Positions 11,701-12,446 of a stretch of 64,000 nucleotides of DNA are shown piece by piece. The stretch's first letter is position 1. Each line of letters begins with the position of its first letter. The position numbers and the translations under genes are program-made. The notes beneath the pieces were generated by a model that saw nothing but the letters and a program-made list of their open reading frames with translations, was not told the DNA's origin and made no database searches. This DNA is from an uncultured Clostridia bacterium (GTDB lineage: Bacteria > Bacillota > Clostridia > Oscillospirales > Oscillospiraceae): positions 1-64,000 of the forward strand of contig CAMFBN010000006.1 of the NCBI GenBank assembly GCA_945948535.1. The letters are read 5' to 3'.

Positions 11701-11958
11701 ATGCCGCATTATGACTTTTTCCAGCACAAACAGTGCGAGTATTTCCCATGCCATGCGGGGGCCGACCCGGAGACCTTCAGCTGCCTGTTCTGCTACTGTC
11801 CGCTGTACTGCCTGGGCGAGAACTGCGGTGGAAACTTTCGATACACCGCCTCCGGCATCAAGGACTGCCAGCACTGTCTGCGGCCCCATAGACGGGAGAA
11901 TTATGACACCATCTGCAAACAAATGAAACAGGTGCTGGAGCTGGTGAAAAAGCCTTGA
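11701..11958 (+). CDS. Small cysteine-rich protein
   Basis: 85 aa with about ten cysteines spread over FFQHKQCEYFPCH, CLFCYCPLYCLGENCGG and DCQHC, suggesting one or two metal sites. It resembles the 'cysteine-rich small domain' family common in Clostridia, sometimes found near cobalamin genes; its biochemical role is unknown. AGGAGG lies eight bases before the ATG. The tRNA-Ser promoter overlaps its stop codon. Confidence 0.75.
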   Translation: MPHYDFFQHKQCEYFPCHAGADPETFSCLFCYCPLYCLGENCGGNFRYTASGIKDCQHCLRPHRRENYDTICKQMKQVLELVKKP

Positions 11959-11983
11959 TTTTTTGCCGCTAAGCTGGTATAAT
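11955..11983 (+). promoter_or_regulatory. Promoter for tRNA-Ser
   Basis: TTGATT and a perfect TATAAT are separated by 17 bases and end ten bases before the tRNA. The -35 box covers the stop codon of the cysteine-rich gene. Confidence 0.7.
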
Positions 11984-11993
11984 GGCACCCAAT

Positions 11994-12084
11994 GGAGATG
12001 TACCCAAGTGGCCGAAGGGTGCGGATTCGAAATCCGCTAGGCGCCGAAAGGCGTGCGGGGGTTCAAATCCCTCCATCTCCGCCA
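11994..12084 (+). tRNA. tRNA-Ser (anticodon CGA)
   Basis: Seven-base acceptor arms GGAGATG and CATCTCC, a long variable arm, the T-loop GTTCAAATC and an encoded CCA end are all present. The anticodon loop TTCGAAA gives CGA, reading UCG serine codons. A terminator follows directly. Confidence 0.95.
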
Positions 12085-12090
12085 GGAAAG

Positions 12091-12118
12091 CCATACCCTT
12101 ACGGGGGTATGGTTTTTT
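12091..12118 (+). terminator. Terminator for tRNA-Ser
   Basis: CCATACCC, loop TTACG, GGGGTATGG, then TTTTTT, seven bases after the encoded CCA. Confidence 0.85.
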
Positions 12119-12124
12119 CTAATT

Positions 12125-12220
12125 GGAGGGATTTGAACCGTAATGAATCCATCAGTCCGGTGGACTGATGGCATCCGGCGGCTCGACGCCGGATGCTCCA
12201 TATTGTAATCAAATCCCTCC
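12125..12220. repeat. Nested palindromic element built from tRNA-Ser tail sequence
   Basis: Outer arms GGAGGGATTTGA (12125-12136) and TCAAATCCCTCC (12209-12220) are perfect complements and are copied from the T-arm of the adjacent tRNA. Inside are two further perfect 10-bp hairpins: CCATCAGTCC/GGACTGATGG and GCATCCGGCG/CGCCGGATGC. The RNA or single strand would fold as a three-way junction. It codes for nothing recognisable. Confidence 0.75.
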
Positions 12221-12230
12221 ATCTCCGCCA
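12209..12230 (+). repeat. Second copy of the tRNA-Ser 3' end (22 bp)
   Basis: TCAAATCCCTCCATCTCCGCCA is identical to 12063-12084, the 3' end of tRNA-Ser including the CCA. This is the kind of duplication left when an element integrates at a tRNA 3' end and later decays. Only 146 bp separate the copies, so no functional element remains. Confidence 0.85.
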
Positions 12231-12233
12231 ATA

Positions 12234-12279
12234 CATTTAATCCCGGTATTCTTTTGGAATACCGGGATTGAATGTTTTT
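12234..12279 (+). terminator. Strong terminator downstream of the duplicated tRNA tail
   Basis: CATTTAATCCCGGTATTC and GAATACCGGGATTGAATG form a long stem followed by TTTTT. It may be the original tRNA-Ser terminator, displaced by an insertion. From here to 12446 I see no gene; a degenerate 16-bp copy (12400-12415) of the sequence at 12134-12149 is the only notable thing. Confidence 0.8.
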
Positions 12280-12446
12280 CGTATTCAATTCAGATAATGA
12301 ATATTTCAAAGACTGCGTTTTCCCTTATTTTTACCCTTATGCCTTCACGGATTTGATAAACTGCTTAATCCGCAGCACCTTTTTGCATTTGGATGGTTCT
12401 GAACCATAGTGAATCAAACCCTCTGAAAACTGGGGAATTACCAATA

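Follow-up and report, generated by a model that had tools for sequence, protein, structure and literature searches.

Units of Two Hairpins Behind Bacterial tRNA Genes Carry Direct and Inverted Copies of the Adjacent tRNA Tail

INTRODUCTION

Phages and genomic islands classically insert at tRNA genes, and the fixed attachment core of such an element normally limits it to one or a few tRNAs. To our knowledge, ordinary island remnants contain a direct fragment of the tRNA tail and never an inverted copy, and no bacterial element has been described that copies the tail of its tRNA both forwards and backwards. For the phages of the T-loop class, strand exchange was proposed to take place at the T-loop, as in Ms6 (PMC1762012). 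In CTXphi, an inverted pair of sequences around hairpins lets single-stranded DNA form an attachment site (PMC3089051). The Islander survey of tRNA islands discards candidates shorter than 2 kb (PMC4383910), and this cut-off would therefore hide units of the size described here. Searches of open papers for repeats beside bacterial tRNA genes yielded no description of such an element.

Here, we describe a unit located at 12085-12230 of a window of 64,000 nucleotides (the whole stretch of DNA analyzed: positions 1 to 64,000 of contig CAMFBN010000006.1, assembly GCA_945948535.1), which comes from an uncultured bacterium of the Oscillospiraceae whose genus is likely Faecousia. This unit is not a single case and is one member of a family, which occurs behind many different tRNA genes of a group of gut bacteria. 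Its members have a common anatomy, are present or absent with precise limits, and copy the tail of the tRNA next to which they stand. What sets the family apart from the elements described in the open papers searched is the tail imprinting itself rather than the mechanism proposed below. Arms that track the local tail could be a way round the limit to one tRNA or, on a rival reading, belong to a new kind of tRNA-linked RNA; the family also offers a natural test of whether template switching holds palindromes identical through evolution.

THE UNIT BEHIND tRNA-Ser(CGA)

Table 1. Features in and around the unit behind tRNA-Ser(CGA), in window coordinates.
Feature	Position	Strand	Basis
Likely tRNA promoter, TTGATT-17-TATAAT, TG before the -10	11955..11983	+	consensus scan alone
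tRNA-Ser(CGA), host gene of the unit	11994..12084	+	ARAGORN; Rfam RF00005
tRNA-Ser tail, the copied sequence (positions 55-76 including CCA)	12063..12084	+	
Whole repeated unit, 146 bp, terminator - X' - core - X, CCA to CCA	12085..12230	+	
T-run terminator hairpin of tRNA-Ser, leading part of the unit	12089..12118	+	sequence; predicted folds
X', inverted copy of the tRNA T-arm and T-loop	12124..12139	-	16/16 inverted repeat; positions 54-63 kept family-wide
Core hairpin 1, loop GGT, CCGGTGG motif	12150..12170 (about)	+	fold; covariation
Core hairpin 2, 10 bp, loop GCTCGA, GGCTNGAC motif	12171..12196	+	fold; covariation
X, exact direct copy of the tRNA-Ser tail including CCA	12209..12230	+	22/22
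Second terminator after X	12233..12275	+	terminator scan
X'-like 12389-12415 running into X-like 12412-12424	12389..12424	+	22/27 match; 0/2000 shuffles

The limits given for the unit in Table 1 are based on like units beside other tRNAs and on empty sites at two other tRNAs, which start exactly after the CCA. The terminator hairpin lies between tRNA-Ser and X' and is counted within the repeated unit. The initial annotation had stated that the last 22 bases of tRNA-Ser are repeated exactly and that an inverted T-arm stands ahead of two inner perfect hairpins, and both statements were confirmed: X agrees at all 22 positions, GGTTCAAATCCCTCCA (12060-12075) recurs in inverted form as X' at 16 of 16, and the two hairpins follow, the first closed by a triloop and the second having 10 bp. 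Over 13 nt, X' is complementary to 12209-12221. The predicted RNA fold of 12115-12240 has an energy of -56.5 kcal/mol (z = -7.2 against shuffles), and z = -7.8 was obtained for 12063-12230 folded as single-stranded DNA.

Downstream of X, the second terminator is 93% identical over 29 nt to the terminator directly after tRNA-Ser(GGA) in another genome (G013), and it is probably tRNA-Ser's own terminator, displaced by the unit. The weaker repeat that had been noticed near 12400-12415 also proved to be above chance: 22 of 27 nt agree at 12389-12415, a match that 2000 shuffles of the region never equaled. Because this repeat continues into an X-like stretch, the two together are probably a decayed second unit from which the core has been lost. 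A spurious ORF of 90 aa runs antisense across the unit and the tRNA (window 12037-12309, minus strand, ending ...RWRDLNPRTPFGA), and ORFs of this kind may get annotated as proteins.

THE FAMILY AND ITS SPREAD

A search of the genome with this stretch showed that the two inner hairpins are present elsewhere in it. The unit after tRNA-Val(GAC) of the same genome is built in the same way, with arms that match the tRNA-Val tail instead; in relatives, the same anatomy was found at tRNA-Gln, Gly, Arg, Lys, Ala, and Pro. The named relatives are MAGs of Oscillospiraceae, including Candidatus Faecousia intestinavium. Member counts rest on searches with a covariance model of the two core hairpins (R1), which matched 13 members in the window's genome and members in 33 of 40 genomes of the same genus and 14 of 151 genomes of the bacterial family. 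Weaker members occur in other families of the order, several of them with X'-like arms and tRNA-like tails. The units measure about 120-240 bp across the family, and their presence is patchy even within the genus and even for one tRNA. A genome of another family (G455) contains, at dispersed places, at least 11 near-identical matches of 44 nt to the two-hairpin core.

When the type I and type II cores were compared with Rfam 15, nothing except tRNA exceeded the gathering cut-off; with this result and the patchy presence, the units do not behave as a known RNA family carried by all relatives, the outcome that the initial annotation had named as refuting it. A candidate microbiome RNA catalogue (PMC8040213) could include the core. 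A viral origin was considered and rejected, as the core pattern and a second pattern matched no contig in IMG/VR and a looser one matched a single contig (L208, IMGVR_UViG_3300029305_011730), where the unit lies outside the prophage, after a displaced tRNA tail. At the right end of that prophage, the end of a tyrosine-integrase-like frame is followed by the displaced tRNA 3' fragment and then by a type I unit of the host.

POSITION RELATIVE TO tRNA GENES

In a set of 144 matches, 83 begin within 80 nt downstream of a same-strand tRNA, nearly all of them at a distance of 46-63 nt. Another 14 are found 170-240 nt behind a tRNA, mostly as later copies in arrays; the tRNAs concerned represent 26 anticodons. 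Matches without a reachable tRNA are often found behind a displaced tRNA 3' fragment, a tmRNA-like end, a contig end, or an earlier copy. At L099, L134, and L171, an integrated element has displaced the tRNA 3' fragment behind which the unit stands, and at L140 and L174 the unit stands behind a tmRNA-like 3' end, recognized by eye. Real genomic islands and one prophage adjoin some units. The arms were also surveyed in samples picked regardless of element presence, with shuffled flanks as the control: both arms were found at 7 of 39 tRNAs of the window's genome, 8 of 40 tRNAs of a genome of another genus (G118), and 20 of 35 copies of tRNA-Val(GAC) within the genus, compared with 0 in shuffled flanks in each case.

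Several other sequences were seen at these places. At L003 (rc, before 661), L125, and L141, a frame enters the last ~8 bases of the tRNA tail (GTCCACCA / CTCTCCACCA) and the unit comes next; by look, this frame resembles the C-terminus of a large serine recombinase, and serine recombinases are unusual at tRNA genes (PMC4383910). A third kind of insert after tRNA-Val (L180, L192, L193) consists of a terminator, GTCAAGCGG..CCGCTTGCAGTGGGTCAG, and a direct tail of ~30 nt, with no inverted copy. Another dispersed repeat (GTGAAATAAATCCC...GATTTGTGAAAT...) lies just behind tRNA terminators (L101, L102, L043, L227, L024) and is present also in another family of the order, and repeats of ~110 bp (GGGCAGTGCCCGGAGCCAGTTCGTTACG...) directly follow one unit (L060). 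One short contig of the window's assembly (L210, G000:C99) carries three tRNA genes without encoded CCA and is possibly a contaminant; the assembly is rated 4.4% contaminated.

THE ARMS TRACK THE LOCAL tRNA TAIL

Summed over the 83 units next to a tRNA, the arms fitted their own tRNAs with a score of 2369; exchanging tails between units gave 1088 on average and 1170 at most. X copies tRNA positions 55/56-76: its identity to the tRNA is 6% at position 54 and 94% at position 56, 94-98% over positions 56-68, and 67-86% over positions 70-76. X' copies positions 54-63, with 99% from position 54 and a fading match beyond 63, and in some units it is full-length, with TGG opposite the CCA. Thus, the two arms have a common sharp boundary in the T-loop. 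Where tRNAs of the same anticodon differ between genomes, X agrees with the tail of its own genome 435:13 and X' 247:6, both being pair counts that are not independent. Changes of both arms relative to the tail were considered as independent proof that X' pairs with X, and this was abandoned with only 4 such cells against 2.1 expected. One rare mismatch was noticed in another family, where a unit behind tRNA-Met (L249) has the arms of a different tRNA (tail TTCGAGTCCTGCTCTACCCACCA).

CORE STRUCTURE, EMPTY SITES, AND TANDEM ARRAYS

Each of the 18 core pairs shows a two-sided change in at least one sequence, and pairing is kept in 97.4% of cells; 500 shuffles never attained the observed values. 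The share of G-T pairs is 1.0% in the core, against ~10% for tRNA stems and 2.7% for the terminators at these loci. Because the terminators are also poor in G-T, the scarcity is a weaker sign of DNA-level structure and was dropped as a proof of it. A second core type (type II), whose model was matched in 29 of 40 genomes of the same genus, shares its arms with the first; the T-arm of the tRNA is copied in its first stem as well, and it contains conserved unpaired motifs. Both core types, with equal arms, were found at the same tRNA in different species.

The tRNA-Val of G240 (L199) has no unit, and its CCA is directly followed by the flank that succeeds X in G000, G009, G019, and G193, with 78-90% identity from the first bases. 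The tRNA-Arg(ACG) of the window's genome (L217) is likewise empty, and at L099 a displaced 3' part of tRNA-Arg with a unit stands ahead of the same flank. Both empty sites are cut exactly at the CCA and are not polarized, as loss by misalignment of the 22-nt repeats would look identical. Tandem units occur at Ser, Ala, Arg, Pro, Leu, and Gly tRNAs, each with its terminator first and its tail last. The nearest core came from the same anticodon for 27 of 83 units (4.2 expected) and from the same genome for 18 of 83 (3.5 expected), which argues that the units are inherited in place and are also shared among the tRNAs of one genome.

A PROPOSED MOBILE ELEMENT OF tRNA 3' ENDS AND ITS RIVALS

The units are best read, with a probability of roughly 0.5, as a site-specific mobile element that is non-autonomous and resides at tRNA 3' ends, with a crossover in the T-loop and arms that are re-copied from the local tRNA; its enzyme, its mobility, and its function are what we infer here. 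In its favor stand the placement of the units behind same-strand tRNAs of 26 anticodons, arms that fit their own tRNA and the tail of their own genome, the sharp boundary in the T-loop, the empty sites, the tandem units, the excess of nearest cores from the same genome and anticodon, and the two core types with equal arms at one tRNA. Against it, the empty sites would look alike after a loss, neither circles nor new insertions were observed, and no recombinase could be linked to the units. A tyrosine recombinase, supplied in trans, would join the unit at the T-loop (positions 54-56), which would restore the tRNA, the tail that it displaces becoming X on the distal side. Both arms stop at the T-loop bases where exchange was proposed for Ms6, and a recombinase crossover there would give exactly such an X. 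X' and X may pair across the core hairpins, so that single-stranded DNA would offer a double-stranded attachment site in the manner of CTXphi. Since a plain crossover into a new tRNA would produce a hybrid tail, the arms would have to be rewritten after a move to another tRNA and held equal to the local tail. The rewriting might proceed by template switching, for which tail-terminator-X' and X'-core-X offer two nested palindromes, and misalignment between the tail and X may also contribute to the upkeep. Such switching should change both sides of a stem and leave no G-U intermediates (PMC8794818), and the stem changes observed here, two-sided and almost free of G-T, agree with it. The further step, that the units represent a new class of mobile element without fixed ends, among the smallest known, which borrows the tail of any tRNA or tmRNA in both orientations as its recombination arms, so that one core could colonize most tRNA genes of a genome and leave them undamaged, is put forward tentatively and is rather more doubtful than the reading itself.

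The chief rival, which we regard as unlikely, is a conserved structured RNA that would arise when transcription reads through the terminator of the tRNA. Its X' would act as an antisense of the T-arm, pairing either with the tRNA tail or with X, and would thereby govern how the tRNA transcript folds, is processed, or decays. Strong covariation, conserved loops, the conserved unpaired motifs of type II, the invariable position on the tRNA strand, and the retention of X' and X where pairing is possible are all consistent with such an RNA. An RNA would account poorly for the patchy presence within the genus and even at one tRNA, for boundaries exactly at the T-loop and the CCA, for tandem and empty sites, and for a terminator placed ahead of it. 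X moreover carries the whole tail with its CCA, which is superfluous for pairing with X', and G-T pairs are rare compared with tRNA stems, though the terminators are low too.

Less probable again is a by-product of replication at tRNA genes, with no movement between loci, in which snap-back template switching at the terminator hairpin would give rise to the inverted copy. The direct copy would come from a further switch, and the tandems would be due to slippage. Every part of the unit consists of nested palindromes, the two-sided changes without G-T fit template switching (PMC8794818), and the units with full-length X' would also be explained; homologous cores at tRNAs of 26 anticodons, common within genomes, speak against it, and it leaves the restriction to some genomes unexplained.

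A relic of a retroelement or of a single-strand (Y1, RAYT-like) transposon using the tRNA tail as primer or target is very improbable. X' resembles a primer-binding site for a tRNA 3' end and the perfect hairpins resemble substrates of single-strand transposases, but at the search sensitivity used, reverse transcriptase (PF00078) was absent from G011 (15 units, 97% complete), G018 (21 units), G009, and G193, and Y1 transposase (PF01797) was absent from G011 and G002 (15 units, 98% complete), with a small doubt due to the incompleteness of MAGs. Both enzymes were rejected as required ones, being missing from several element-rich genomes. Equally improbable are ordinary remnants of islands or phages, the view of the initial annotation, for which the direct displaced tail, a hallmark of such islands (PMC4383910), and the true islands and prophage beside units speak, and against which stand an inverted copy foreign to such remnants, the lack of an integrase inside the units, and conserved covarying cores of two types. 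The part of that annotation which saw a tRNA-derived miniature element comes close to the evidence, if the element is taken as one that is associated with the tRNA and can be repeated in tandem at its end; the part which saw the remains of repeated integration is insufficient for the inverted copy, the conserved covarying cores, and the 26 anticodons.

COMPARISON WITH KNOWN SYSTEMS

The units resemble REP/BIME sequences with RAYT and MITEs as short, dispersed, non-coding palindromes that are related within a genome. They differ in their location at tRNA 3' ends in one orientation, in ends that match each tRNA, and in not requiring a Y1 transposase, which the element-rich G011 and G002 lack. 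The identical terminal inverted repeats that all copies of a MITE share are not found, as the arms follow the adjacent tRNA. In a comparison by eye, integron attC sites and cassette arrays are likewise arranged head-to-tail, each with a foldable palindromic site, whereas the units contain no cassette gene and have arms whose sequence tracks the tRNA rather than a constant core motif.

Like the tRNA islands and phages of the T-loop class (Islander, PMC4383910; Ms6, PMC1762012), the units repeat the 3' tail of the tRNA, T-loop through CCA, in direct orientation at the far end (X), occur in tandem arrays, and target tRNA and tmRNA. Unlike them, they are ~120-240 bp long and gene-free, the hairpins leaving no room for an integrase gene; they carry the inverted copy X' besides the direct one, and a single core family is found at 26 anticodons. 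Xer integration of CTXphi (PMC3089051) shares with the units two inverted att-like copies, foldable, around ~90 nt with hairpins. The targets of the units are tRNA tails rather than dif, phage genes are absent, and the use of single strands is putative; in the predicted fold, the X'/X stem encloses the hairpins, so that the two inverted copies come together into one site as those of CTXphi do.
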